This document shows, one piece after another, positions 1 to 11,054 of a stretch of 11,054 nucleotides of DNA; positions within the stretch are counted from its first letter, which is position 1; each line of letters begins with the position of its first letter. The DNA lies in the NCBI GenBank assembly GCA_016926595.1, contig JAFGOG010000090.1, positions 1 to 11,054 of the forward strand. The letters are read 5' to 3'. The position numbers were made by a program, and so were the translations under genes. Under the pieces are notes generated by a model. The model made no database searches, was not told where the DNA came from, and saw only the letters and a program-made list of their open reading frames with translations. The stretch is from Anaerolineae bacterium. Lineage in GTDB: Bacteria; Chloroflexota; Anaerolineae; JAAYZQ01.

Positions 1-698
1 ACCGGAGCGGTGGTCTGATCGAGCCAGCAGATGCAAAAGGCGACGAGGCTGCCGTCCGGCGCGACGGCCACCAGATCCAGGTCTGGGACATATCGCGGCT
101 GTTGTAGGGTGCGGCTGCGCCACTCCACCGTCATGTTCTCGGTGCCAAACACAGTCCACTGCAGGTCGACGTAGGCTCTGATTTCGCTCTCTCCCGCCAA
201 AGGACGGACCGTCACTCCTGCCGGCAAGGCATAGTCGGGCACTGGCATCTCAGTCAGGCGCCGCATCAGCGCCTTCGACCAGGAATCCTCGCCCATGTCT
301 GCCTGTGAGACGAACCCGGCCTGCTCCAGATCGCGGATCCGGCCGCTCTGGTCGGAAAACACGTTCACATACCATTTAGAAAGCCCACTGGGGGTCCCCA
401 AAATCTGGCGGGCGCGCCCATCGGCCCAGGCCAGGATCTGCCGGTGAAGGTCCTGGCCAGCTCCAGCATGGCAGGCATAGTCGATCGCCCACCACGGCGT
501 CTGCATCACCGCCCAGGCGAGCAGTTGCCCGCCGGCGTCGACCCACAGCCCGACATTGCCAGGATCGTCAAATGCCCAGGAACTGAAACGCCAGGGCAGA
601 TCGGCTACATGGAGGTTGTCGGCAGGAGAATCGTGGACAAGCGCCGCCATAGCCCGCAGGTCTGCCTCGCCGAAAAACTCGCGCTGGATGAACTTCAT
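1..698 (-). CDS. GNAT family N-acetyltransferase, two-lobed, C-terminus beyond the window
   Basis: The reading frame stays open from an ATG at 698 to the left edge (232 codons plus 2 nt), so the C-terminus is missing. The protein starts M-K-F-I-Q-R-E and has a first lobe (about residues 1-150, with a conserved-looking D-L-P-W-R-F segment near 34). A second lobe starts near residue 162 (T-V-R-P-L) and leads into D-L-D-L-V-A-V-A-P-D-G and F-C-I-C-W-L-D, the beta4-type strand that precedes the acetyl-CoA loop in mycothiol-synthase-like GNATs. The acetyl-CoA loop itself would lie beyond the edge and cannot be seen. Such enzymes transfer an acyl group from acyl-CoA to an amine; the substrate cannot be inferred. 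The start overlaps the dehydratase stop by 4 nt (ATGA), implying translational coupling. Family call is by remembered pattern only. Confidence 0.8.
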   Translation of the reverse strand, partial: MKFIQREFFGEADLRAMAALVHDSPADNLHVADLPWRFSSWAFDDPGNVGLWVDAGGQLLAWAVMQTPWWAIDYACHAGAGQDLHRQILAWADGRARQILGTPSGLSKWYVNVFSDQSGRIRDLEQAGFVSQADMGEDSWSKALMRRLTEMPVPDYALPAGVTVRPLAGESEIRAYVDLQWTVFGTENMTVEWRSRTLQQPRYVPDLDLVAVAPDGSLVAFCICWLDQTTAP

Positions 699-2158
699 GG
701 TCCGTCCTGTTCCTCAATCCCCGCCAGCTTTCTAGCCAGCCGCATCTTTTCCTCCAGGCCCGCCAGCCGGGCGAGCATGATCCGCTGCGCCTGTGGCGAT
801 CCGGCGCCGTGCATCGACTCGACAAGATAGGCCGCCGCCCCCGGCCCCAACGTGAGGTTCTCGGCCAGGCGCAGCATCTGGCAGCGCTCCTCGGTAGGAT
901 AGCGGTCCACGCTGTGCAGGTACTTAACCAGGTAAGGCCCCACCTCCGGATTGGCCAGGTCCTTCTCTGAGGGCAGTGTGACCAACAGGCCGCCGGCGAC
1001 GTCCTGGGCCAGCCGGGCAATCTCGTAGGGGAAGCGGGTTACGTTGAGCTTGCATACGTTGGCCAGCAGCAGGTCGATCAAGTAGGTGCCTGAAGCAGTC
1101 GGCCTGCCTTCTGCCGAGCAGGCGATGCCGCAGGCATAGATGGTCTCGTTGAGGTGAACCATTTCCACGATCTTGTCCCTGATGTGCGAGGCGTGGTCGG
1201 CGCCCTGGTAGCGGGCCAGCGACTGGGCGGTCCCGATCAGCACGTCGCCAACGCCCACCTTGCAGCCGCCGTAGCTCTGACGATGATAGCCGGCGAAACG
1301 CTCGACGAGCAGCCGGCTGTAGCCGTATTCGCCGGCCATAAACACCCGTTCCCAAGGGACGAACACGTCGTCAAGGACGATCACCGCCTCGTGCCCGCCA
1401 AACTCGCGATTGCCCACGTCGAGCCGGCCCCCTTCCAGCTTGCGCGTATCCGATGGCTGCCGGCCATAGATCATCACGATGCCCGGTGTATCGGCAGGGA
1501 CAGCGCAGGACACGGCATAGTCCTGGTCTTGCTCCGCCAGCGCCAGTGTAGGCATGATGAGGATCTCGTGCGAGTTCAGAGCCCCGGTCTGGTGGAGCTT
1601 GGCGCCGCGCACCACAATGCCATCCGCCCGCCTGTCAACGATGCGCACAAACAGGTCCGGGTCGGCCTGCTGCGAAGGGCTCAGCCGCCGGTCGCCCTTT
1701 GGATCGGTCATCGCCCCATCCACTACCAGGTCGTGCTCCTGCACCTGCTGCAGGTAGCGGCGGAACCTGGCGTGATAGCCTGTCCCCAGCGCCTGATCCA
1801 TCTCGAAGGTCACCGAATCGAGGGCGTTAAAGGCGTCCATGCCCACGCAGCGCTGGAAACAGCAGCCGGTCGTCTGCCCCAGCAGGCGTTGCATCTTGAC
1901 CTTGGCCACCAGGTCTGCCGTGCCCTGGTGCAGGTGGGTGAAGCGGTTGACCGTCTGGCCGGTCAGGTTGGAGGTGGCCAGCATCAGCCCAGCGTGCTCG
2001 GGCTGGTGGGCCAGCTCGTAGGTCATGGCACAGGCATTGAGCGACGGCCGGACCAAGGGGTGGTCGACCAGGTTGTCTACCTCCTGGCCCATGATGAACA
2101 CCCGCCTTTTCAACCTGCGCAGGCTGTCAATGTATTCGTCCCTGGTCATCAGCGCCAT
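695..2158 (-). CDS. 4-hydroxybutyryl-CoA dehydratase / vinylacetyl-CoA delta-isomerase family protein (HpaB-like flavoprotein fold)
   Basis: At 487 aa it is close to AbfD of Clostridium aminobutyricum (about 490 aa), which dehydrates 4-hydroxybutyryl-CoA to crotonyl-CoA using FAD and a [4Fe-4S] cluster. AbfD cluster ligands are C99, C103, H292 and C299. Here C100 and C104 lie in C-C-F-Q-R-C, and H292 and C299 lie in Y-H-R-Q-S-Y-G-G-C-K, with Y296, K300 and E257 at the same numbers as residues reported as catalytic in AbfD; T191 in H-Q-T-G matches T190. All ligands are thus present, which separates it from the cluster-less 4-hydroxyphenylacetate 3-monooxygenases of the same fold. The ATG at 2158 has AGGAGG 6 nt upstream. 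It follows ptuB by 36 nt and overlaps the GNAT gene. No other 4-hydroxybutyrate pathway gene is visible, so the true substrate remains open. Confidence 0.88.
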   Translation of the reverse strand: MALMTRDEYIDSLRRLKRRVFIMGQEVDNLVDHPLVRPSLNACAMTYELAHQPEHAGLMLATSNLTGQTVNRFTHLHQGTADLVAKVKMQRLLGQTTGCCFQRCVGMDAFNALDSVTFEMDQALGTGYHARFRRYLQQVQEHDLVVDGAMTDPKGDRRLSPSQQADPDLFVRIVDRRADGIVVRGAKLHQTGALNSHEILIMPTLALAEQDQDYAVSCAVPADTPGIVMIYGRQPSDTRKLEGGRLDVGNREFGGHEAVIVLDDVFVPWERVFMAGEYGYSRLLVERFAGYHRQSYGGCKVGVGDVLIGTAQSLARYQGADHASHIRDKIVEMVHLNETIYACGIACSAEGRPTASGTYLIDLLLANVCKLNVTRFPYEIARLAQDVAGGLLVTLPSEKDLANPEVGPYLVKYLHSVDRYPTEERCQMLRLAENLTLGPGAAAYLVESMHGAGSPQAQRIMLARLAGLEEKMRLARKLAGIEEQDGP

Positions 2159-2164
2159 GATAAT

Positions 2165-2170
2165 CCTCCT
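2165..2170 (-). promoter_or_regulatory. Shine-Dalgarno of the dehydratase gene
   Basis: On the minus strand AGGAGG stands 6 nt before the ATG at 2158. It supports this start over the internal Met4 and allows independent initiation after the ptuB stop. Confidence 0.8.
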
Positions 2171-2194
2171 GTTAGAGTTGGCGGAGAGGCACAG

Positions 2195-3079
2195 TCACGA
2201 GATCGAATCGATCAAGGCCGCAGCGCCCTCAAAGATGGCCTGGGCTTCCACGGGATCGCTTTCAAACAGGCGCTTGAAGCTGCGAGCACAGTTTGTGTGG
2301 GGTGCGGTTGAGCTCGTGAACCCATCCACGATCTGCGTGGCAACCGCCTTGACAGCGCCGGCGGCGCTGCTGGCCAGACTTAGCTGCGGGTGGAGCGCTA
2401 CGATAATCGCGGCACGCTCACGCACGAGGTTCTTTCGCGTGTCTAGGTTATCCAGCTCAAAGAACTCGATGGTCACCAACGCCCGAGCCCGGTCGTGTCC
2501 GCCGTTGGCAACCGCCTGGGGTGATATACCGTGGAACTTGATCAGCTCTTCTGGCACCGCATCAAAGTCGCCAATCGGATAGATCAGGTAGGGCTTTTCC
2601 TTTAGCAGGTCCACCGGATCCTCGCCGGTCAGATCATAGTCGCCGGCGATCGGAAAACAGGTCTTCTTTAGCTGGGAATTACAGACCTTGCATGAGGCAA
2701 GATAATTGAACGGATGATACGGCAGCAAAAAGTACCCCCGATCCTCCGCCGGGACTGGGCTGGCGTCAATCCCCTGCTCTTTCAGATGCTCGGGCATCTC
2801 CCATGCCAGCACCCTGCCTTTAGGCCGAAAGTGCTCTACGTCCAGCTCGATGGAGCCGTGGGGAAGATCTGCAAACTTGCGCTCGCAATAGGCGCATTTG
2901 CTTCCGCCTTGAAGTGTCATATACACTGATTTGACTTCGTTCCAGATTGAGCTCCTTTCTTCGTACCGGGCCTTTTTGCGGAGCCTCCCGATGCGATTTG
3001 CTGCTCTCCTCAGCCAGGAAGCTGACTTGGCTGCGATCCGTGCTTCCAGATCGGCCTGAGAGATGGGGTAGCCGATCAT
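2195..3079 (-). CDS. ptuB: Septu-type HNH endonuclease PtuB
   Basis: A 294-aa protein with a zinc-finger-framed HNH/beta-beta-alpha-metal nuclease. C62 and C65 (C-A-Y-C-E) and C130/C133-N134 (C-K-V-C-N) form the knuckles, and D80-V-E-H83-F-R-P-K carries the catalytic histidine. This C-x2-C...EHFRPK...C-x2-C-N layout is that of the TIGR02646 family, the nuclease of the Septu antiphage system and of Ec78-type retrons. In Septu the nuclease acts with the PtuA ATPase to restrict phage by cutting nucleic acid. Its ATG lies 1 nt after the ptuA stop, with GAGGAG inside the last ptuA codons, so the two are coupled. No reverse transcriptase or msr/msd-like element is seen nearby, favouring stand-alone Septu over a retron. 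The C-terminal half (after about 150) has no motif I recognise. Confidence 0.88.
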   Translation of the reverse strand: MIGYPISQADLEARIAAKSASWLRRAANRIGRLRKKARYEERSSIWNEVKSVYMTLQGGSKCAYCERKFADLPHGSIELDVEHFRPKGRVLAWEMPEHLKEQGIDASPVPAEDRGYFLLPYHPFNYLASCKVCNSQLKKTCFPIAGDYDLTGEDPVDLLKEKPYLIYPIGDFDAVPEELIKFHGISPQAVANGGHDRARALVTIEFFELDNLDTRKNLVRERAAIIVALHPQLSLASSAAGAVKAVATQIVDGFTSSTAPHTNCARSFKRLFESDPVEAQAIFEGAAALIDSIS

Positions 3080-3080
3080 C

Positions 3081-4316
3081 CTACTCCTCCATCCCCCGGC
3101 TCATTTGCTCCAACAACCGCTTGGCTGCCTCGGTATCCCCACCACGTGCCTTGAGCGTTAGCTCTTTCAGCGAGTGGCGCTTTCCGGGGGCCCGGGTCGA
3201 TTCCAAGCCAAAGAAATCAGTTAGCAGCACCTGGTCGGCATCCAGGCCGTGCACAGATTGCCTGATCCGCGTCATTTCGCTGGCCTGCCCCTCTTCTGGC
3301 AGCATGACGACGATATTCATCCACTCCAACGAGCCGACCAGGAGCGGGCTGTGTGAGGTTACGATGAACTGGATATTGGGAAGCGCCCTGCCCAGAATGG
3401 GGAGGAGCGTCATCTGCCATTTGGGGTGCAGATGGAGGTCGATCTCATCCACCATGACGATCCCATGATTGTCGACCAGCTTGTTGCCAGAGGGACAGGT
3501 CACGCAAATGTGGTAGAGCAGGTCGCCCACCCAGCCCAGGAAAGCGCGATAGCCATCGGACAAAGCCGGGTACGGGATCTTGAGCCCTTGGTGATCGAAC
3601 AGGTACTCGCCGTCCTCCATTTCCCCGGTAAACTCGTAGTGATCTTCGCCGATCAGCCTGTCGATGAGGCCGACAGCCTGTTTAAAGCGCCCTGGGTTCT
3701 CGGCTTTGTACTTGGGGAGCCATGCACTTAGAGGAACGAGCGTGTACGCTTCTTCGAACAGGCTCTGTACACGCTGGGCCCGGACAAAGGACGAGCTCCG
3801 GCGGCTGCCCAGATCTATCTGGTCTCGTTTCTCCACACGACGGGTAGCGCCATAGCCGACGAAAAAGAAGGCGTCCGAGCTCGCACTAAAGATCGGGTGC
3901 CAGAGTTTTTCTTCGGGGTGCGCCCAGTGCAGAGATTCAAGATCGCCACGCCGCCGTACAAGCACGCGAGACTCTAGCCAACGCACCCCTCCCGCCCCGT
4001 CCTGTAAGTGGGGCGTGAACCTGGCTTCCAGAACCGCTTCCTTGCCCTCAGGGACCTGCTCACAGTCAGGCTCCTGCCGGATGAGCCGGTAGGGAAAGAT
4101 CCCCGAGTCACCCACTGCGGGCCCCAACGCCGCGAGCGCGATAGCCTTGAGCAAGGTGGTCTTGCCCAGCCCATTATCGGCCAGCAGCAGGTTAATGTTC
4201 GGCAATTTGGGCTTGGGCAGGTCTACATTGCGCCAACGCAAATCGGGATGGACGAGTGTGATCTCGGTCTCCCGAAAGACCCGGAAGTTGCGTATCTCTA
4301 TCGAGTCGATAAACAT
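3081..4316 (-). CDS. ptuA: Septu-type ATPase PtuA (AAA_21/SMC-like)
   Basis: A 411-aa ABC/SMC-like ATPase of the overcoming-lysogenization-defect type. Beta strands 1-2 (I-E-I-R-N-F-R) lead to Walker A A-D-N-G-L-G-K-T-T at 46-54, where the first Gly is Ala. A signature-like L-S-D-G-Y-R is at 252-257, Walker B G-I-V-M-V-D-E-I-D at 285-293, and the H-loop T-S-H-S-P at 320-324. PtuA binds ATP and controls the partner nuclease PtuB; it is a cytoplasmic defence sensor. The start at 4316 has AAAGGAGG at 4322-4329, a near-perfect ribosome site. The downstream neighbour ptuB begins 1 nt after its TAG. Family-level alternatives are other AAA_21 ATPases paired with HNH nucleases, but the tight pairing makes Septu the simplest reading. 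Confidence 0.88.
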   Translation of the reverse strand: MFIDSIEIRNFRVFRETEITLVHPDLRWRNVDLPKPKLPNINLLLADNGLGKTTLLKAIALAALGPAVGDSGIFPYRLIRQEPDCEQVPEGKEAVLEARFTPHLQDGAGGVRWLESRVLVRRRGDLESLHWAHPEEKLWHPIFSASSDAFFFVGYGATRRVEKRDQIDLGSRRSSSFVRAQRVQSLFEEAYTLVPLSAWLPKYKAENPGRFKQAVGLIDRLIGEDHYEFTGEMEDGEYLFDHQGLKIPYPALSDGYRAFLGWVGDLLYHICVTCPSGNKLVDNHGIVMVDEIDLHLHPKWQMTLLPILGRALPNIQFIVTSHSPLLVGSLEWMNIVVMLPEEGQASEMTRIRQSVHGLDADQVLLTDFFGLESTRAPGKRHSLKELTLKARGGDTEAAKRLLEQMSRGMEE

Positions 4317-4340
4317 TCTACCCTCCTTTGTCCAGACCTC

Positions 4341-4346
4341 ATCATA
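4341..4346 (-). promoter_or_regulatory. possible extended -10 promoter for ptuAB
   Basis: In the gap between the upstream short gene and ptuA, the minus strand reads TGG followed by TATGAT, an extended -10 element (TGn-TATGAT) ending 24 nt before the ptuA ATG. No convincing -35 is present at 16-18 nt. If used, the mRNA would have a leader of roughly 18 nt holding the AAAGGAGG site. Confidence 0.4.
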
Positions 4347-4391
4347 CCACAGGAGCAGGTCCGCCTATCTCACTACAGCCAAAAGACCACC

Positions 4392-4679
4392 TTACGGCAG
4401 CGGCACCGTCTCTTCACGGCCCTCGCAGTATTTGACAATGACCGACTGTTCGTCTGGCGCAATGGCGACCTCGCATACGCCGGAGAGACGATAATCCTCC
4501 CACATGCCGGTGGTTGTGCTCAGGCTCGCCTCCATCTGGCCTTCGAAGACCATTACGACCTGCCCCGAACGCCTGTGGACAACCTTGTAGTAGATCGTCT
4601 GCTCCAGCTCATAGAGGCCACCGTGCGGAGGCCCTTCTTCGACTAGCACCTCGAACCGGCCTGTCTGTTGCTCGCACAC
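4392..4679 (-). CDS. hypothetical protein, about 95 aa, upstream of ptuA
   Basis: Not recognised. The frame is open between a TGA just upstream of 4691 and the TAA at 4392. GTG codons at 4691 and 4679 are possible starts; I prefer 4679 because GGTGAGG stands 6 nt before it. Composition is protein-like: a mostly beta-looking chain with a Y-E-L-E-Q-T-I-Y-Y-K-V-V run, a Trp-Glu-Asp-Tyr segment and an alternating hydrophobic C-terminus (V-I-V-K-Y-C-E). No membrane segment or signal peptide. It lies about 20 nt after the CDGSH gene and 75 nt before ptuA on the same strand, so it could belong to either transcript. It could be a divergent small accessory to the defence pair, but nothing shows this. 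Confidence 0.55.
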   Translation of the reverse strand: MCEQQTGRFEVLVEEGPPHGGLYELEQTIYYKVVHRRSGQVVMVFEGQMEASLSTTTGMWEDYRLSGVCEVAIAPDEQSVIVKYCEGREETVPLP

Positions 4680-4712
4680 ATCGGGCCTCACCCATCACGG
4701 CCGCATGCCGGG

Positions 4713-5426
4713 CTAATGGGCGGCCGCTTGCCGGTGCGCGCCATCGCACAGCGGCTTGTTTTTCGACCGCCCACAGCGGCACAGGGTGACCCGGTTGCGC
4801 GTTTCGAGAGGCTGTCCGTCGGCGCGCTCGATGGGGATGTTGCCGGTTACCCACAGCGGGCCGTCTATCGGGCCATCCGAGGTGATCTCGGTAGTCACCG
4901 CAATCTGCTGGGGGAGATCGGGCTCGATGTCCTCCTCACCCTCTTCGATCGAATAGACATACGAACCGGATGGGCAGCGCTCGACCATGGCCATGACCAG
5001 CGACCGGACCTCCGTGTCGTCGGTGTGAGGAACCATGTCTTCGATGCGCTTGAACCGATTTGCGCAAAAGCCTGCTTCCGAGCACAGCGAATGGTCGCGC
5101 TTGACGACGATGTTGGTGCCGCCCGGAAAGGTGACCTGGCGATCTGCGGTCGGCCGGGTGTCGGCCGACTCGGCGCCGTCGAAATCGACCAGGGCATGGG
5201 TGACGTCGCAGAACGGCTTGAAGCTGGACTGCCCACAGCGGCACAGCTCGTACGTCTCGGGAGTGGGGATCGCCTCTCCCGTTTTCCAGGTAAGCGGCTC
5301 GCCATACTCTGACACAACCTGTGTCTTGTGCACCAACGGAATACCCCCGTGCACAACGTACGGGCCGTCCTCGGTTATCACGATCTTGCTGCCGTCACTG
5401 GGGCTGCGTTCCTGCCGCTTGGCCAT
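4713..5426 (-). CDS. CDGSH iron-sulfur protein with two CDGSH motifs and a central divergent 4Fe-4S domain
   Basis: A 237-aa protein from the ATG at 5426, chosen over an upstream in-frame start because GGGAGG lies 6-7 nt before it. The first CDGSH motif has C62-R-C64, C73-D and H77; the second has C216-R-C218, C227-D-G-A-H231. Each 3-Cys/1-His set binds a [2Fe-2S] cluster in mitoNEET-type proteins. Motif 1 is degenerate (C-D-V-T-H instead of C-D-G-S-H) but keeps all four ligands. Between them, C115, C121 and C151 (C-P-S-G-S) match the divergent mono-cluster 4Fe-4S domain (DUF1271/Fer4_19) often fused to CDGSH. It is likely a soluble redox or cluster-transfer protein; partner unknown. It heads a minus-strand gene run leading to the Septu pair. 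Confidence 0.88.
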   Translation of the reverse strand: MAKRQERSPSDGSKIVITEDGPYVVHGGIPLVHKTQVVSEYGEPLTWKTGEAIPTPETYELCRCGQSSFKPFCDVTHALVDFDGAESADTRPTADRQVTFPGGTNIVVKRDHSLCSEAGFCANRFKRIEDMVPHTDDTEVRSLVMAMVERCPSGSYVYSIEEGEEDIEPDLPQQIAVTTEITSDGPIDGPLWVTGNIPIERADGQPLETRNRVTLCRCGRSKNKPLCDGAHRQAAAH

Positions 5427-5478
5427 CGGTTTCCTCCCGCATCGTAGCCGCACCTGTGTCGTGCCTGCGCTTGCCAAG

Positions 5479-5507
5479 ATTGTATCACCAGGAACTACTT
5501 TTGTCAA
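5479..5507 (-). promoter_or_regulatory. sigma70-type promoter of the CDGSH gene
   Basis: On the minus strand TTGACA (5502-5507) and TACAAT (5479-5484) are separated by exactly 17 nt. Predicted transcription start is near 5472, giving a leader of about 45 nt that ends in the GGGAGG ribosome site before the ATG at 5426. Confidence 0.75.
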
Positions 5508-5621
5508 TCACATCCTTGTTATGCCATTGTCCTAAACAACGTAAAGGCGTGACCAGCTTGCGCCATTGTAGCCAAAGGCGTGGGAACGATCTAGATCCGA
5601 CGTCCCATACCTATACGGCGG

Positions 5622-6253: not shown

Positions 6254-6312
6254 ACCGGCGCGCCGGCGCTCGACGCTTGGGCAGCGCTAGACCCACGCTC
6301 GAGGAAACAGGC

Positions 6313-6903
6313 TCAAGATGTCAAAGTGGGTCTTGGGAACCTTTTCTGGAACCACTTGGTGCGCACCAGTAGTCTGTTCAGCCAGAACAGCGGCGCCAAA
6401 TAAGAGTACCTTTGCCGGACAAACTGAGCCGTCAGACGCATAGCCCACTTGTCCGCGACGTCTTCCCTTTCACAGTACTCTCGCCGCAGAGTGGCATGGA
6501 TGTGATGGCCGATCTCATGATACAGGGTATGAGCCAAGGCCATGTCTCTCAGGAAGGGGATAGCTCGGAACGCACGGTGTTTATACTGCCGGATATTGTC
6601 AACAAATATGTCAATGTAGGCTTGCTGGCTGCTTGTTTTGCGGTGGTACAAGCCCGAACACTCTGCGATTCGAACCTTTCGCTTGCGTGCCCGCGTTTTT
6701 CCTCTGCGGAGATCTCGGGGGAGCGCCGCCGAGTTCGTAAGCACTATTCGATCGAGTCCACGCAGGCAGATCGGAGGAACATGCTGCATCAGCCTGTTCG
6801 CGACCATCATGATATTGATTGGCGGATTGTAGTCTTGGTAGGCCTCTACGATCTCGACGACATCTTCTGAATCGGAAGCGGCGTTATCACGATTGTCTAG
6901 CAA
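6313..6903 (-). CDS. HExxH zinc metallopeptidase-like protein, function unknown
   Basis: About 196 aa if translation starts at the TTG at 6903, which follows GGAGGAG (6906-6912) by 2 nt. The frame extends upstream, but there it only reads the DUF1722 pseudogene out of frame, so I exclude it. The best motif is Y-H-E-I-G-H-H-I-H with H129, E130 and H133, the HExxH zinc site, followed by E-R-E-D-V-A-D-K-W-A; E147 or D151 may be the third ligand. A basic stretch (R-G-K-T-R-A-R-K-R-K) lies near residue 70. No signal peptide is seen, so it is likely intracellular. It begins 29 nt after the DUF1722 stop of copy 1. It resembles small peptidase-like proteins of unknown substrate; whether it is a toxin, a phage-related protease or housekeeping cannot be told. 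The start is uncertain. Confidence 0.65.
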   Translation of the reverse strand: MLDNRDNAASDSEDVVEIVEAYQDYNPPINIMMVANRLMQHVPPICLRGLDRIVLTNSAALPRDLRRGKTRARKRKVRIAECSGLYHRKTSSQQAYIDIFVDNIRQYKHRAFRAIPFLRDMALAHTLYHEIGHHIHATLRREYCEREDVADKWAMRLTAQFVRQRYSYLAPLFWLNRLLVRTKWFQKRFPRPTLTS

Positions 6904-6932
6904 GACTCCTCCAAGATACCAGGCAGAGACAG

Positions 6933-7544
6933 CTACACATGATTGCGCAGCATCAGCTCCTTCGGATACGGGTTCAGGTACACCTGCTGCCACACCCAGT
7001 CCGGCACCGGATGCCGCCGCAGGTGATGCTGGAGCAGCGTCATCGGCACGATCAGCGGCACCAGCTCCTGCCGGTAATCCTCGATCAGCCCCAGCATCTC
7101 CTGCTTGTCCTCACCAGACAGATCTTTCTCAAGGCAACCCATCAGGTGCTGGAGCACATTCACGTGCTTGCGCCGCGTGCCCAGCAGCGCCAGCCCGGCC
7201 ATGAACTGGGCGCCGTAGGCGGCGATCAGCTCGTCCCACGGCAGCGTCCCCGCCTGGGCTACCAACCGCCCCAGCTCCTGGTAGTGCTTTGGGCTATGCG
7301 CCATCAGCGTCAGCTTGTGCGCCGTGTGAAATCACACCAGCCCGCCCGGCGTCGGCTCGTTCTTTAGCATCTCGGTCCAGCGGTAGTAGGCAAAGGCCCG
7401 CTCGATGAAATTCTCCCGCAGCAGCAGGTCATTCAGTCGCCCTTACTCCTCCAGCGGCAACAGCGGAAAGCGCTGCATCGCCGCCCGCGGAAACATCCCC
7501 GTCCCGGTGCGGCTGGGGTTGCCATGCTCGTCGTACACTTTCAC
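6933..7544 (-). pseudogene. DUF1722 (YbgA) domain gene fragment, copy 1, broken by two stops
   Basis: The frame matches copies 2 and 3 over their full 203 codons, from V-K-V-Y-D-E-H-G to L-M-L-R-N-H-V. Codon 34 (Glu in the others) is TAA (7443-7445) and codon 71 (Arg) is TGA (7332-7334). Upstream, one A is missing in the KKNSP region compared with copy 3, a frameshift outside the annotated span. The last 123 codons remain open from an internal ATG at 7304, which might still give a partial protein. DUF1722 has no established activity; it usually follows a DUF523 domain, whose characterised member TudS is a thiouracil desulfidase. Here only the DUF523 tail S-P-S-S-G survives upstream. Confidence 0.85.
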
Positions 7545-7627
7545 ACGGAATAAGCCTGAACTTGGCGAATTCTTTTGTAAGAGTGGACACAATCAACAAA
7601 ACACGCTTTCGCTGACTACTCGAATCC
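7545..7627 (-). repeat. 5' flank of DUF1722 copy 1 shared with copy 2
   Basis: Upstream of the possible GTG, this flank reads TGTGTCCACTCTT on the minus strand, exactly as in copy 2. After an equal spacer of 35 nt it ends with GGATTCGA, also shared. The duplication therefore includes DNA beyond the coding fragment. Confidence 0.6.
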
Positions 7628-7702
7628 TGATCCAGGCACACAGAGGAGTGGGGAACTTACTTGAGTGAACTCTCAAAACAAACCGTCATTGGTCATGCCT
7701 GG

Positions 7703-7770
7703 ACAAGTCCTCGCTGAGCACCACCCAGCTGGGCACAGGTGACCTCAGCGGTTAGAAATCAGGCACTTGT
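7703..7770. repeat. nested inverted repeats downstream of the Phd antitoxin gene
   Basis: ACAAGT (7703-7708) pairs with ACTTGT (7765-7770), CGCTGAG (7712-7718) with CTCAGCG (7744-7750), CACC (7719-7722) with GGTG (7738-7741), and the centre CCCAGCTGGG (7724-7733) is self-complementary. This gives a long bulged hairpin starting at the antitoxin stop codon. No T-run follows, so it is not a standard terminator; it could stabilise the mRNA end or be a recombination-type single-strand fold. Confidence 0.5.
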
Positions 7771-8036
7771 TAGGAGGGCACAGTTTCGTCCTCAACCTCA
7801 GCGTCTTCTATTCTTACCCCTCGTCCTTGGCGCAGGCTTTGCCTGGCTGCCTCAATACGCTGCAAAAAGCGTGGGTCGTTTTCGAGCCGATAATCAAACC
7901 AATCATCTTCCGACTCGAATCCGATAAGCACGCCGGCAGGCTTCCCGTGGCGAGTAATGACTACCTCCTCGTCTTCTGCAAGACGCAGGTACCTTGATAG
8001 ATCATTCTTGACTTCGCCTAGTGCCACTCGTTTCAT
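7770..8036 (-). CDS. Phd/YefM-family antitoxin
   Basis: 88 aa. The N-terminal half (K-N-D-L-S-R-Y-L then E-E-V-V-I-T-R-H-G-K-P-A-G-V-L-I-G) is the classic Phd/YefM fold: a helix followed by V-V-I-T-R-H-G-K-P. This fold dimerises and binds operator DNA. The acidic C-terminal third should be the disordered segment that wraps and neutralises the toxin. The start ATG overlaps the toxin stop by 4 nt (8033-8036), so translation is coupled. Toxin-first order is the reverse of the usual Phd/Doc or YefM/YoeB arrangement. It probably represses its own promoter through the palindrome at 8331-8343. Confidence 0.9.
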   Translation of the reverse strand: MKRVALGEVKNDLSRYLRLAEDEEVVITRHGKPAGVLIGFESEDDWFDYRLENDPRFLQRIEAARQSLRQGRGVRIEDAEVEDETVPS

Positions 8037-8326
8037 TCTCGCTTTTCCACCCTTTCCAACCAGGCATCCGCTTCCGACTTGAGAACGATTCCGAGAACTT
8101 CTACAAGATTGTCCGATACGTCGTAATACACCCGGATCTCACCTACTCGCAGTCGAAACTGCGGACGCGACAGTCCTCGAAGACGCTTGATGCGGCTCTT
8201 GCTCTCCATCACAGGGTCGTGTCTCAAGTGCGTTTCGATCGCGTCACGCACTTTTGCACGCCAGTGCGCCTTTAGGGTTCGTAGATCTTTGATAGCTGCT
8301 GGTGATAGAATGATCTCGTAACGCAT
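8033..8326 (-). CDS. RelE/ParE-superfamily toxin
   Basis: 97 aa with the RelE/ParE pattern: Y-E-I-I-L-S-P-A-A-I-K-D-L at the start, a helical pair, R-L-R-G-L near 48-52, then F-R-L-R-V-G-E-I-R-V-Y-Y-D-V (about 57-70), the strand pair typical of the family, and a final helix A-W-L-E-R-V. RelE-type members cleave mRNA on the ribosome and ParE-type members poison gyrase; the sequence does not settle which, although R-L-R-G and the R-V-Y-Y-D strand favour the RelE branch. It is first in a two-gene operon with the Phd-type antitoxin and carries its own strong promoter with an almost absent leader. Confidence 0.9.
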   Translation of the reverse strand: MRYEIILSPAAIKDLRTLKAHWRAKVRDAIETHLRHDPVMESKSRIKRLRGLSRPQFRLRVGEIRVYYDVSDNLVEVLGIVLKSEADAWLERVEKRE

Positions 8327-8330
8327 TCTG

Positions 8331-8343
8331 GCTATATTATAGC
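8331..8343. promoter_or_regulatory. candidate antitoxin operator
   Basis: GCTATA-T-TATAGC is a perfect 6+1+6 dyad that covers the -10 element of the toxin promoter. Autorepression by a Phd/YefM dimer at such a site is usual for the family; binding here is inferred. Confidence 0.55.
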
Positions 8344-8364
8344 TAAAATCGATTCTGGAGTCAA
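8336..8364 (-). promoter_or_regulatory. sigma70-type promoter of the RelE/Phd operon, apparently leaderless
   Basis: On the minus strand TTGACT (8359-8364), 17 nt, TATAAT (8336-8341). The expected start site is near 8329, only 3 nt before the toxin ATG at 8326. No Shine-Dalgarno exists between them, so the transcript should be leaderless or nearly so. Confidence 0.8.
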
Positions 8365-8378
8365 GTTTCCTACCCCTC

Positions 8379-8411
8379 CAAACTGGTATTCTCGTCTACT
8401 CGAATGATCGC
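8379..8411 (-). pseudogene. remnant of the start of a second copy of the 89-aa gene
   Basis: The minus strand encodes I-I-R-V-D-E-N-T-S-L-E, matching I-I-Q-V-D-E-N-I-A-L-E at the start of the 89-aa gene (8 of 11 identical). The ATG is replaced by GCG and a stop follows two codons later. It lies 37 nt beyond the DUF1722-type C-terminus of the adjacent remnant; the intact pair has 38 nt. Same order and spacing argue for a duplicated then deleted unit. Confidence 0.6.
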
Positions 8412-8445
8412 CTCCACACTATGTAAAGGCTCTCGGACGCAGCCT

Positions 8446-8510
8446 CACGTGATTCCTCAGCATCAGATCCTTCGGATATGGTCGCAAATACACCTGCTCC
8501 CACACCCACC
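8446..8510 (-). pseudogene. DUF1722 fragment, copy 4 (last ~21 codons only)
   Basis: On the minus strand this encodes W-V-W-E-Q-V-Y-L-R-P-Y-P-K-D-L-M-L-R-N-H-V, the exact C-terminal block of the three long copies with few changes. The stop codon is lost (AGG instead of TAG). The 5' side ends abruptly at the truncated gene next to it. Confidence 0.85.
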
Positions 8511-8573
8511 CCGAAGCTGTGAGATGGGCACCGACAAATCCTTCTCTGCAAGGACTCTGATATAGTAGCCCAT
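8511..8573 (-). pseudogene. truncated 5' end of an unknown small gene
   Basis: From an ATG at 8573 the frame reads M-G-Y-Y-I-R-V-L-A-E-K-D-L-S-V-P-I-S-Q-L, which looks like the genuine start of a small protein type I loosely recall as hypothetical 'M-x-Y-Y-I-R-V-L' proteins. After about residue 21 it runs into the DUF1722 remnant out of frame and stops at 8463. It begins 18 nt after the stop of copy 2; AGGGGGG lies about 9 nt before the ATG. Most of the gene appears to have been removed by the event that joined it to copy 4. Confidence 0.5.
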
Positions 8574-8591
8574 GGCATTCTACCCCCCTGC

Positions 8592-9197
8592 TTACACGTG
8601 ATTGCGCAGCATCAGCTCCTTGGGGTACGGATTCAGATACACCTGCTGCCACACCCACTCGGGCACCGCGTGTCGCCGCAGGTGATGCCTGAGCAGCGTC
8701 AGCAGCACAATCAGCGGCACCAGCTCCTGCCGGTAATCCTCGATCAGCCCCAGCATCTCCTGCTTGTCCTCGCTCGACAGCTCCCTCTTCAGGTAGCCCA
8801 TCAGGTGCTGCAGTACGTTCACATGCTTGCGGCGGGTGCCCAAGAGAGCCAGCCCTTCCATGAACCGAGCCCCGTGCGTAGCGATCAGCTCGTCCCACGG
8901 CAGCGCGCCAGCCTGGGCCACCAGGCGGCCAAGCTCCTGGTAGTGCTTTGGGCTGTGTGCCATCAGCGTCAGCTTGTGCGCCGTGTGGAACCGCACCAAC
9001 CCGCCCGGCGTCGGCTCGCTCTTTAGCATCTCCGTCCAGCGATAGTAGGCAAACACCCACTCGATGAAATTCTCCCGCAGCGGCAGGTCGTTGAGGCGGC
9101 CTTCTTCTTCCAACGGCAGCAAGGGGAAGCGCTGCATGACGGCGCGGGGAAAGATGCCGGCGCCGGCGCGGCTGGGGTTGCCGTGCTCGTCGTACAC
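8592..9197 (-). CDS. DUF1722 (YbgA) domain protein, copy 2, lacking its DUF523 domain
   Basis: 201 aa from a GTG at 9197. The conserved DUF1722 order is present: R-F-P-L-L-P-L-E-E-E-G-R-L-N-D, R-E-N-F-I-E-W-V-F-A-Y, F-H-T-A-H-K-L-T-L-M-A-H-S-P, G-T-R-R-K-H-V-N-V-L-Q-H-L, I-E-D-Y-R-Q-E-L-V-P-L-I-V and L-M-L-R-N-H-V. Upstream of the GTG the frame continues with K-S-K-S-P-S-S-G-L-Y-R-V, the tail of a DUF523 domain, until a TGA about 80 nt upstream. In DUF523 proteins this motif is usually S-P-S-C-G. No ribosome site precedes the GTG and no other start is clear, so translation is uncertain, yet 200 codons are free of stops. It is about 93% identical to copy 3. Confidence 0.75.
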   Translation of the reverse strand: MYDEHGNPSRAGAGIFPRAVMQRFPLLPLEEEGRLNDLPLRENFIEWVFAYYRWTEMLKSEPTPGGLVRFHTAHKLTLMAHSPKHYQELGRLVAQAGALPWDELIATHGARFMEGLALLGTRRKHVNVLQHLMGYLKRELSSEDKQEMLGLIEDYRQELVPLIVLLTLLRHHLRRHAVPEWVWQQVYLNPYPKELMLRNHV

Positions 9198-9287
9198 CCT
9201 GACCCGATACAGGCCAGACGAAGGCGATTTCGATTTGCAAGAGTGGACACAAACGCTACTGCCTGTTCACGATGACGAGTCGAATCC
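9198..9287 (-). repeat. 5' flank of DUF1722 copy 2 shared with copy 1
   Basis: Contains the DUF523 tail codons, TGTGTCCACTCTT, a 35-nt spacer and GGATTCGA in the same order as the flank of copy 1. The rest of the gap up to the hicB stop (9288-9377) holds nothing I can name except a weak GGCC-gaa-GGCC hairpin around 9335. Confidence 0.6.
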
Positions 9288-9377
9288 ACGTTGGGATGCT
9301 GACCTTGGACAGGGGTGGAGGGTCGCCTTTGGGCCGAAGGCCAGATGACCTGTAAACGGGCCGAACTGCTTGTGCCT

Positions 9378-9602
9378 TCAGGAAGCCATGGAAGGAACGG
9401 CAACGTACTCGGCGAAAGAATGCGACTCTGGTACTGGCAGCGCGTCTTCGAGTAGACCGCGCACGTGCATTTCAATTGCTTCGTACATGTTGCGTGTGGC
9501 TTCGTCACGACTCTTACCCGTTGCCACGCAGCCCGGCAAGTCCGGTGAATAGGCTGAATAGTTGCCGTTGGCTCGTTCGATGACGATAAGAAAGCGATAC
9601 AT
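9378..9602 (-). CDS. hicB: HicB-family antitoxin (short form)
   Basis: 74 aa from the ATG at 9602; upstream in-frame codons belong to the hicA region and are excluded. The pattern Y-S-A-Y-S-P-D-L-P-G-C-V-A-T-G-K-S-R-D-E-A is the hallmark partial RNase H-like fold of HicB: a beta strand, P-D-L-P-G-C, then a helix starting E-A...E-A-I-E-M-H. It ends soon after the helix with no helix-turn-helix or ribbon-helix-helix segment, so it neutralises HicA but may not bind DNA itself. It begins 4 nt after the hicA stop, and the two form one operon. Confidence 0.92.
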   Translation of the reverse strand: MYRFLIVIERANGNYSAYSPDLPGCVATGKSRDEATRNMYEAIEMHVRGLLEDALPVPESHSFAEYVAVPSMAS

Positions 9603-9606
9603 CTCG

Positions 9607-9816
9607 CTAGTCGCCCTTTCCCTTCCCTGACTTGTCCACCTGTGCTTGCTTGAGAACACTGTTGAGTGTACCAGGGGCCAAATCATCGCCTAGATGTCCG
9701 GCAATGGTCACACGGCCTGGCTTGGCAGGATGCTTGTATTGCCGGTGACTACCCTTCGTCACAGCCAGATACCAGCCATCCTCTTCAATCAGTTTGATCA
9801 CGTCGCGGATCTTCAT
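9607..9816 (-). CDS. hicA: HicA-family mRNA interferase toxin
   Basis: 69 aa, the normal length for HicA. It has the double-stranded-RNA-binding-like fold pattern: M-K-I-R-D-V-I-K-L-I-E-E-D-G-W, then G-S-H-R-Q-Y-K-H-P with the catalytic His at residue 24, followed by G-R-V-T-I-A-G-H and a C-terminal helix T-L-N-S-V-L-K-Q-A. HicA cleaves mRNA independently of ribosomes; HicB blocks it. Toxin-first order is normal here. It has its own promoter and a GAGGA ribosome site 6 nt before the ATG. Its tail (K-S-G-K-G-K-G-D) is basic. Confidence 0.93.
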   Translation of the reverse strand: MKIRDVIKLIEEDGWYLAVTKGSHRQYKHPAKPGRVTIAGHLGDDLAPGTLNSVLKQAQVDKSGKGKGD

Positions 9817-9834
9817 GGCTGTTCCTCAGACGAA

Positions 9835-9863
9835 AGTATACCACCGCCAGGGCAAAAGTGCAA
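9835..9863 (-). promoter_or_regulatory. sigma70-type promoter of hicAB
   Basis: On the minus strand TTGCAC (9858-9863), 17 nt, TATACT (9835-9840). The expected start is near 9828, giving a leader of about 12 nt. The ribosome site GAGGA (9823-9827) lies directly in it. Confidence 0.75.
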
Positions 9864-9893
9864 GTCATCGTTGCGAGCGACGGCCACGTTGGG

Positions 9894-10163
9894 TCAGAAA
9901 TCTACATCTGGATTCGGGACTCTAGGGAATACTGAGCGTGGGATGCTTCTGGCTTTGGCTGCTGCCTCCTGCAAACCAGCCGCCAATTGCTCCGCCTGCT
10001 CAATAGTCAGCAGGAAGCTCGTCTCGTCTGCCGCAAAGATTCTGATACTCTCAGGACCAGACTCGCGGATGCTGAACCGGATCTCATCGCCCATGCCCTC
10101 TTCCCGATCCATCAGGTCAAAGTACACCTCAAGTGCGATGTTTTCATCTACTTGAATGATCAT
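9894..10163 (-). CDS. hypothetical protein, 89 aa
   Basis: Not recognised. The ATG at 10163 is preceded by AGGGGTGA with suitable spacing; the open frame continues upstream only by reading the DUF1722 gene out of frame. The protein is acidic (M-I-I-Q-V-D-E-N-I-A-L-E-V-Y-F-D-L-M), with alternating strands to about residue 45 (I-R-F-S-I-R-E-S, I-R-I-F-A-A-D-E-T-S-F-L-L-T) and then a helix I-E-Q-A-E-Q-L-A-A-G-L-Q-E-A-A. No signal or membrane segment. It starts 32 nt after the stop of DUF1722 copy 3 and ends about 30 nt before the hicA -35. A decayed second copy of its start lies at 8379-8411, also behind a DUF1722 end. Confidence 0.7.
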   Translation of the reverse strand: MIIQVDENIALEVYFDLMDREEGMGDEIRFSIRESGPESIRIFAADETSFLLTIEQAEQLAAGLQEAAAKARSIPRSVFPRVPNPDVDF

Positions 10164-10195
10164 CGGCTCACCCCTGTCAAGACCCCTAATGCGAC

Positions 10196-10807
10196 CTACA
10201 CGTGATTCCTCAGCATCAACTCCTTGGGGTATGGGTTCAGATACACCTGCTGGTGCACCCACTCCGGCACCGCATGCCGCCGCAGATGGTGCTGAAGCAG
10301 CGTCAGCGGCACGATCAGCGGCACCATCTCCTGCCGATAGTCCTCGATCAGTCCAAGCAGCTCCTGCTTGTCCTCGCTCGACAGCTCCTTCTTCAGATAC
10401 CCCATCAGGTGCTGCAGCACATTCACATGCTTCCGCCGCGTCCCCAGCAGCGCCAGCCCTTCCATGAACTTGGTCCCGTAGGTGGCGATAAGCTCCTCCC
10501 AGGGCAGGCTGCCTGCCTGCGCCACCAGCCGCCCCAGCTCCTGGTAATGCTTCGGGCTGTGCGCCATCAGCGTCAGCTTGTGTGCCGTGTGAAACCGCAC
10601 CAGCCCGCCCGGCGTCGGCTCGTTCTTCAGCATCTCCGTCCAGCGATAGTAAGCAAACACCCGCTCGATGAAATTCTCCCGCAGCGGCAGGTCGTTCAGC
10701 CGCCCTTCCTCCTCCAGCGGCAGCAGCGGAAAGCGCTCCATCACCGCCCGCGGAAAGATGCCGGCGCCCGCCCGGCTGGGGTTGCCGTGCTCATCATACA
10801 CTTTCAC
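10196..10807 (-). CDS. DUF1722 (YbgA) domain protein, copy 3, lacking its DUF523 domain
   Basis: 203 aa from a GTG at 10807. It contains the same blocks as copy 2 (R-F-P-L-L-P-L-E-E-E-G, R-E-N-F-I-E-R-V-F-A-Y, F-H-T-A-H-K-L, R-K-H-V-N-V-L-Q-H-L, I-E-D-Y-R-Q-E, L-M-L-R-N-H-V). Upstream the frame continues as K-K-N-S-P-S-S-G-L-F-R-V, again only the last residues of DUF523. No ribosome site is seen. Stand-alone DUF1722 proteins exist (E. coli YbgA, about 169 aa), so a functional single-domain product is possible. The biochemical role of DUF1722 is not established; fusion to DUF523 suggests sulfur chemistry on nucleobases or thiolated substrates, which this fragment alone could not perform because the DUF523 cysteines are absent. 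Confidence 0.78.
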   Translation of the reverse strand: MKVYDEHGNPSRAGAGIFPRAVMERFPLLPLEEEGRLNDLPLRENFIERVFAYYRWTEMLKNEPTPGGLVRFHTAHKLTLMAHSPKHYQELGRLVAQAGSLPWEELIATYGTKFMEGLALLGTRRKHVNVLQHLMGYLKKELSSEDKQELLGLIEDYRQEMVPLIVPLTLLQHHLRRHAVPEWVHQQVYLNPYPKELMLRNHV

Positions 10808-10954
10808 GCGGAATAAGCCTGAACTGGGCGAATTCTTTTTATAAGAGTGGGCGCAATAGACACAATGGGTTCAGCTTTTGCGTTTGGATTGCCCTAGCAG
10901 ACGGTGCGCCACAATCGAGAGCAAGATCCACATGATTCGCCGACACCTCACTGC

Positions 10955-11054
10955 CTACTCGACCGCTGCATCGATGACCTCGAATCGCCGATTCTCGCCA
11001 TCAATCCTAGCGCGGCATCCTATAGGAACAGTGAACTGCGGTGCTGTGTGTCCG
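10955..11054 (-). CDS. C-terminal end of an unknown gene entering from the right edge
   Basis: A frame open at the right edge ends with TAG at 10955-10957. Its last residues read G-H-T-A-P-Q-F-T-V-P-I-G-C-R-A and R-R-F-E-V-I-D-A-A-V-E. The balanced composition suggests a genuine C-terminus, but 32 residues are too few to name it. The 100 nt between this stop and DUF1722 copy 3 hold no feature I can support. Confidence 0.4.
   Translation of the reverse strand, partial: GHTAPQFTVPIGCRARIDGENRRFEVIDAAVE

Follow-up and report, generated by a model that had tools for sequence, protein, structure and literature searches.

Housekeeping-gene tails, a shared end and toxin–antitoxin cargo in Anaerolineae arrays point to an undescribed route of gene collection

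The stretch of DNA analysed here (the window, 11,054 nt of contig JAFGOG010000090.1 from an Anaerolineae bacterium) holds a one-orientation array in which tail fragments of a DUF523-DUF1722 gene alternate with small cargo genes, many of them toxin–antitoxin genes. Immediately upstream of each long tail fragment lies a conserved non-coding stretch of about 55 nt, called the right end below. The array is not specific to DUF1722, as a similar right end is found at tails of YyaL, metG and glmS as well. Cassettes lined up behind housekeeping genes in some uncultured Chloroflexi, each with the gene tail of another lineage and a shared end, point to an undescribed way of collecting genes that spares the host gene. 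The array is probably a tandem series of small mobile cassettes that lack a recombinase of their own and have accreted into a conserved gene, rebuilding it and displacing its old tail.

In the proposed mechanism, a cassette would open at a fixed codon of a conserved gene and run through the remaining 3' part and stop codon of that gene into the cargo and a right end of about 55 nt. A new cassette would enter an intact gene at the junction of its 5' part (A) and 3' part (B). The gene would be rebuilt as A-B', with the donor-derived tail B' and the cargo next to it, while the old tail B would be pushed downstream behind the right end, where it would be freed from selection and decay. Repeated entry would build an array whose newest unit lies closest to the intact gene, and a similar right end would serve at least four housekeeping genes (RudS/DUF523-DUF1722, YyaL, metG and glmS). 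Integration presumably takes place by site-specific recombination at the junction of right end and tail, with a recombinase acting in trans. The rebuilt gene would be functional, and the toxin–antitoxin cargo would stabilise the array. Directly observed are the build of the arrays, the right end that they share, divergent tails within a locus, a single case of cargo turnover and a HicAB segment related between two genomes.

In the window, the DUF1722 tail is present as three long copies (c1–c3, 84-86% alike) and one short remnant in one orientation, as a preliminary description made from the letters alone had stated; all lie on the minus strand (Table 1). The same description placed the start of the long copies at the last residues of DUF523, and indeed all three begin there (KKNSPSSG in c3, KSKSPSSG in c2, QKNSPSSG in c1) and none holds more of that domain. 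The reading frame is open in c3 and c2; in c1 it is broken by two internal stops, and the beginning of that copy shows a slip of one base. A small gene or stump was correctly said to follow each copy soon, at about 32 nt (c3), 18 nt (c2) and 29 nt (c1) past the stop, but it is not different each time: c3 and the remnant both lead into the 89-aa gene family. After c3 come the 89-aa gene, HicA and HicB; after c2 a stump beginning MGYYIRVL; after the remnant an 89-aa-gene stump, a ParE-type toxin and Phd; and after c1 an open reading frame (ORF) with an HExxH motif. The HicAB and RelE/Phd pairs recognised earlier were confirmed by Pfam (PF07927, PF15919, PF05016, PF02604). An assembly artefact is unlikely, because the copies are about 15% apart and the same junction recurs in three assemblies (window, G002 and G003) and in separate metagenome protein clusters.

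Proteins of the DUF523-DUF1722 type are described as RudS tRNA desulfidases (PMC11417400). The scan of one genome per species gave 40 relatives, and a full-length parent gene, whose existence elsewhere had been predicted, forms the array head in two of them: locus L002 of Anaerolineae B4-07 (genome G002) and locus L003 (genome G003). The head of the window's own array would fall past base 11054. In L002, the full-length gene is followed by an ORF related to the 89-aa gene, by one that resembles HicA to the eye but has no match in Pfam and by HicB, and further on by a DUF1722 tail remnant, an NTase/HepT pair, a second tail remnant and the contig end. In L003, a 1.5-kb block separates the full-length gene from a displaced open tail, behind which lies a degenerate piece. 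Decay mostly grows with distance from the head in the window and in L003. Among six close genomes, matches to the window unit number six in G002 (some being pieces of one copy), two in G003 and one in each of the other four. In the class sample, 43 of 396 genomes hold a match, in single copy except in G002 (6) and G616 (2), and in the order of G003 only 2 of 400 genomes do. Viral contigs gave no exact match to the end motif and no DUF1722 relative. As a side observation, two short units of G002 (L094 6569-6735 and L002 9038-9202) appear by eye to share a similar internal deletion in the DUF1722 tail, which looks as though the short form itself had spread.

The right end was missed by the preliminary description. 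It is absent at the remnant; across the window, G002 and G003 it precedes the starts of 16 fragments, including L003 copy 2, L002 9038-9091 and contig C64 of G002 (6569-6626). In the window, its core marks all three junctions (3 matches against a mean of 1.1 in shuffles). With up to 3 mismatches, the DUF1722-form core occurs at two sites in G002 and one in G003, every one an array junction, and at no site in four other genomes searched. In 11 array sequences, a 19-nt core (up to 4 mismatches) was found on one strand only, with no inverted partner such as the terminal repeats of an insertion sequence or transposon would supply, although a diverged partner end could still exist. A stem-loop in the right end was considered and is not supported: folds differ between individual ends, no covariation supports a fold, and the boxes of each end pair no better with their own partners than with shuffled ones (fraction 0.31) and barely better than letter-shuffled boxes (-9.3 against -8.4, sd 0.7). 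Two sequence models were used for further searches. Model R1 is sequence-only and was trained on nine DUF1722 and YyaL ends, while model R2 was built from 14 of the 16 ends; the scores of training members follow from the construction of the models.

The evidence that one end serves several genes comes from G002. A contig of this genome with a DUF1722 remnant also holds a YyaL (DUF255) tail. A search of G002 with that tail gave 11 matches, the query included; four fragments begin at the codon after HFEK, and three of these four have the right end, the exception being that on C64. In a blind test, model R1 was applied to 10 genomes with 150 candidates scored per genome. New matches at E<=0.1 were obtained at G002:C146, G647:C481 and G002:C189, two of which directly adjoin fragments of other genes: the C146 end adjoins a metG tail at KMSKS (the junction is partly masked) and the C189 end a glmS tail. 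With these matches, G002 has tail fragments of four housekeeping genes, and here too the cargo includes toxin–antitoxin genes. Further pieces lie on C189 (four of glmS) and on C146, C128 and C37 (metG). Seven metG pieces start inside a contig; four of them, of which C128 holds three and C37 one, start ahead of KMSKS at residue 344-345 and have the right end, with an interruption of about 45 nt in two. The other three are masked (C146) or decayed or cut (C37 3548 and 2219). Both glmS pieces with an assessable start begin at one and the same codon. The motifs beside the breakpoints (KKNSPSSG, HFEK/MLYDE, KMSKS) are conserved. The earlier idea of a system based on DUF1722 is thus too narrow. A common short target motif, TTYRARAAG, derived from the first two genes, was dropped once metG and glmS were included. 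Two side observations belong to these contigs. At G647:C481 (L129, 179-229, minus strand), a right-end match of 18.8 bits is followed by an open frame at the contig end, with the gene not assigned. Very large ORFs on contigs with YyaL or metG arrays (L112, rc 396-4943; L128, rc 770-5209; L113, rc 4067-5575) resemble by eye SARP/AfsR regulators fused to AAA or WD40 parts and are possibly more cargo.

Plain homologous recombination would offer another account, akin to rhs/cdi accretion: homology within the gene lets in DNA of relatives together with the non-homologous genes downstream of it, and the right end is only an inherited flank. It accommodates the divergent tails with their dN/dS of 0.06-0.08, the swap of cargo between conserved flanks and the intact array heads in L002 and L003. 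It is nevertheless rather unlikely as the full explanation: a similar right end stands at four unrelated genes in one genome, the metG and glmS cases were found blind by the end model, and the breakpoints fall at fixed codons again and again. Arrays can be spread and rearranged by homologous recombination, but the presence of one end in several genes is left without an explanation. Within the model of accreting cassettes it has a probable part, the turnover of cargo, seen at a YyaL locus where G001 and G002:C108 have the same flanks and C108 alone carries HicB and HicA, on the reverse strand of a segment of about 480 nt. Such turnover of cargo between conserved flanks had been anticipated in the preliminary description, and cargo is probably gained, lost and swapped there by homologous recombination. 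The G001 flank scores 2.4 bits with model R2, which indicates that the right end there is decayed or absent. Also in favour of mobile cassettes, L002 and G640 have a related HicAB segment in common (87% over 702 nt). It lies behind DUF1722 tail sequence in either genome and, in G640, ahead of a decayed tail as read by eye.

The origin of the displaced tails can be judged from their divergence. Intact and displaced tails of L003 differ with pS 0.59, pN 0.067 and dN/dS 0.062 and have no stops; for c3 and c2 of the window, the values are pS 0.46, pN 0.051 and dN/dS 0.076, again without stops. High silent and low protein divergence without stops argues that the tails evolved in working genes elsewhere, since a useless local duplicate would not diverge in this manner. 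Most likely the DUF1722 tails of the tested pairs were parts of functional genes in separate lineages while they diverged, and the copies look brought in from there rather than duplicated in place. The open displaced YyaL tail on C64 (417 codons) differs from the full-length YyaL of G002 at 68% of silent and 27% of replacement sites (dN/dS 0.19), and the proteins are only about 60% alike. Among the pairs available, the closest is one of glmS, with 92% over 457 nt. In G658, the genome's own metG is 64% like the metG of G001, while its metG fragment is 82-86% like it, a pattern that agrees with import, though the contig is possibly mis-binned.

Two other explanations bear on the same divergence. 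Insertion with a long target duplication has been described for restriction-modification genes; here a cargo block would insert and the host's own gene tail would be duplicated, which fits the tail–cargo–tail geometry. The copies should then be identical at birth and the useless one should decay. Instead, the two DUF1722 pairs have about half of their silent sites changed at low dN/dS and without stops, and the YyaL tail has diverged as far as stated above. This explanation is therefore very improbable, unless the displaced tails are themselves selected, in which case the divergence argument fails. In a natural form of home-and-rescue, a protein- or RNA-guided nuclease would cut a conserved motif in cassette-free cells, repair would copy the cassette, and the differently coded tail would rescue the gene and resist recutting. 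The position of the breakpoints beside conserved motifs, the direct contact of the conserved end with the target sequence and the 59% of silent sites that differ between the tail in use and the displaced tail of L003 all suit such a process. No nuclease or guide was seen, however, Rfam gave no match at E<=0.5 in 6300-11054, no covariation supports a right-end fold, and the silent differences fit ordinary divergence between lineages. Home-and-rescue is accordingly considered improbable.

Separate material comes from metagenome protein clusters. In a search of 5.8 billion proteins, the best 120 of 4118 relatives were examined, and the DUF523 body is absent by length and sequence in 26 of them, though some of these may have been truncated where a contig stops. 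Six of the 26 contain the S(P/L)SSG motif, and three of the six carry the PF04463 label for the overlap. An in-frame right end (C[VA][HQ]SY) precedes the motif in five of the six, with a different sequence in P0020. The fragments P0007 and P0014 share the reported contig size and source with the full-length P0008, as do P0010 and P0017 with each other, which is consistent with arrays on one contig but is not proof.

Among 34 cargo ORFs compared with Pfam, 16 matched toxin–antitoxin-type families, 7 other families and 11 none. The first group comprises HicA, HicB, Phd, ParE, NTase, HepT, TumE and PIN, together with DUF433, DUF4258, UPF0175 and DUF3368 (just under the cut-off), which are also counted as toxin–antitoxin families. 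The second includes NUDIX, radical SAM/SPASM, WYL, Cass2/GyrI, UPF0158, DUF1858 and subtilase. HicB and HicA of C108 are two more matches beyond the 34.

The explanation by accreting mobile cassettes has to be weighed against several observations that speak against it. No recombinase is found by Pfam among the 34 cargo ORFs, and a motif scan of 1159 ORFs in 32 array loci (whole genomes were not searched) gave eight matches, all judged by eye to be chance. No whole-cassette pair of empty and filled sites occurs among the loci examined, and an obvious shared motif is absent from the target sites compared. Model R2 finds no right end at nine or more further fragments, among them the window remnant, L002 8314, L094 1677 (a degenerate C64 copy), L094 6797, L159 rc 2219 and 3548, L130 1143, L111 3931 and L196 rc 7402; the two interrupted ends on C128 were excluded from that model. 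Displaced tails that are translated and under selection where they now lie would show a low dN/dS as well, which is the remaining alternative to import. In G640, the gene beside the cassette is only a remnant and contig C1 is a scaffold with 100-N gaps; the metG fragment of G658 lies away from that genome's own metG. Most loci are short contigs of metagenome-assembled genomes, for which mis-binning is possible. Of the 13 R2 matches at E<=1e-3 that are not training members, finally, only four lie at recognisable fragments or cassettes: one in G640 and the one in G658 at DUF1722 or metG cassettes, and those in G587 and G451 before N-terminally shortened proteins (DJ-1/PfpI from profile position 24 of 165 and a metallophosphoesterase from 15 of 154). 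The other nine are at no recognised fragment: G451b is beside an apparently intact gene, those of G604 are beside a reverse ORF, and the remainder are unassigned.

These R2 matches come from the class search, in which 40 of 396 genomes have a match at E<=0.05, about twice the roughly 20 expected by chance, the E-values being rough. At E<=1e-3, matches in eight of the 396 genomes serve as leads, and all ten in G002 are training members. In G604, matches (loci L199-L203) lie next to the region in which a reverse ORF begins (MTSQHPP..HWW, by eye), where a 5' fragment rather than a tail may be displaced. Transposase-like ORFs, again by eye, adjoin right ends in G640 (L195 rc 9748-10869, IS110-like) and G587 (L211 5016-6095, IS630-like).

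Table 1. Features of the window array, listed in their order along the minus strand.
Feature	Position	Strand	Evidence
Right end R3, non-coding, conserved but degenerate; directly upstream of c3	10848..10905	-	Model R2, 21.1 bits (training member)
c3, DUF523-DUF1722 (RudS-type) tail fragment; frame uninterrupted between KKNSPSSG and stop	10196..10840	-	PF08349, 1.3e-43
89-aa cargo gene (MIIQVDEN...), related to L002:7404-7640 in equivalent position	9894..10163	-	No Pfam match for containing ORF
HicA toxin, cargo	9607..9816	-	PF07927, 9.7e-22
HicB-like antitoxin, cargo; longer ORF begins at 9686	9378..9602	-	PF15919, 1.2e-11 (ORF 9378-9686)
Right end R2, upstream of c2	9244..9298	-	Model R2, 21.4 bits (training member)
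c2, tail fragment, open from KSKSPSSG to stop	8592..9236	-	PF08349, 1.4e-40
Cargo-gene stump (MGYYIRVLAEKDLSVPISQL), fused to following DUF1722 tail	8514..8573	-	–
Remnant, final ~21 codons of DUF1722 copy, stop codon gone	8446..8513	-	–
Stump, relative of 89-aa gene (IIRVDENTSLEG*)	8370..8408	-	–
ParE/RelE-type toxin, cargo	8033..8326	-	PF05016, 9.5e-07
Phd/YefM antitoxin, cargo	7770..8036	-	PF02604, 1.2e-11
Right end R1, upstream of c1, best kept of three	7584..7639	-	Model R2, 37.4 bits (training member)
c1, tail fragment, most decayed long copy	6933..7580	-	PF08349, 7.9e-39 (part 6933-7304)
HExxH protein (YHEIGHH), the cargo that follows c1; TTG taken as start codon	6313..6903	-	ORF; longer ORF 6313-6993 without match in Pfam, NCBIfam or PADLOC

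Elsewhere in the window, a Septu-type anti-phage pair occupies 2195-4316 on the minus strand, with a PtuA ATPase (PADLOC PDLC00301, 6.6e-141) and a PtuB HNH protein (PDLC00318, 2.8e-74). The region 695-2158, also on the minus strand, encodes a relative of HpaB-like 4-hydroxyphenylacetate 3-monooxygenase that falls under the curated NCBIfam cut-off.

Toxin–antitoxin modules are known to move, while the way in which small ones move alone is, to our knowledge, poorly understood. Many free-standing modules are found here in a recurring frame, with a gene tail on one side and a conserved end on the other, which makes their route of movement testable; the R2 end model is a tool for listing such cassettes in other genomes. 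If the model of accreting cassettes is true, essential genes are docking sites restored with foreign tails, and hybrid genes of the metG and RudS type occur in the host. A more far-reaching interpretation, offered tentatively, is an undescribed gene-capture platform of Anaerolineae: a cassette family with a dedicated end would dock in housekeeping genes including metG and glmS, the foreign tail would rebuild the gene and the toxin–antitoxin cargo would lock the array. Capture would be seamless, since the tail that restores the docking gene arrives with each cassette and is foreign and differently coded. In function, such a platform would be an integron that has none of an integron's parts, or else nature's equivalent of engineered home-and-rescue constructs.

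None of the papers listed by literature searches describes such gene-tail cassettes, which is no proof of absence. Chromosomal integrons hold one-orientation arrays of small cassettes, often with toxin–antitoxin or accessory genes, and a recurring site of about 60 nt. The present arrays are alike in orientation, cassette size and recurring site, and an integron-associated Cass2 gene is among their cargo. In contrast to integrons, the entry point lies inside a housekeeping gene and full units contain a gene tail; a paired fold like that of attC is not supported for the right end by the pairing figures given above; IntI was found neither by motif scan in the 32 array loci nor by Pfam among the 34 cargo ORFs, whole genomes not having been searched.

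In the orphan modules of rhs/cdi loci, to which the preliminary description had likened the array, constant ends have also been displaced and stand, all in one orientation, ahead of variable cargo; new modules are proposed to push old ones downstream (PMC4927057). A displaced constant fragment in the same orientation downstream of an intact gene is likewise seen in L002 and L003, and the notion of a constant end with variable cargo stands. The assignment to an rhs/cdi-type system does not, because the cargo consists of free-standing genes past a stop codon rather than toxin tips of a constant protein. Every tail whose end is kept has a stop codon ahead of the cargo, except where decay has removed the stop; no fusion joins the cargo to the constant protein, and the host gene does not encode a protein for toxin delivery.

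The nearest known systems are cis-mobilizable elements (CIMEs) and the ssrA islands of Dehalococcoides, not rhs/cdi. In CIMEs and tandem accretion, elements that lack integration genes accumulate next to a target gene whose end is repeated. The loci examined here likewise have a repeated target-gene end at unit boundaries and units without integration genes. They differ in that units are often about 1-2 kb with hundreds of bases of coding tail, that one end type serves several genes and that no helper element is seen. The Dehalococcoides islands, also from Chloroflexota, lie in tandem downstream of an essential gene; each boundary repeats the 3' end of that gene, and a conserved motif adjoins the repeat on its upstream side. 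Islands without an integration module are termed possible cis-mobilizable elements (PMC3146451). As given there, the repeat is a 20-bp piece of one RNA gene and sixteen islands have CcrB-like serine recombinases (DsiB) (PMC3146451). No convincing serine recombinase motif was found in the array loci scanned, whole genomes not having been searched. The present arrays, compared with the ssrA islands, have long protein-coding tails, several target genes, none of which is ssrA, and toxin–antitoxin cargo.

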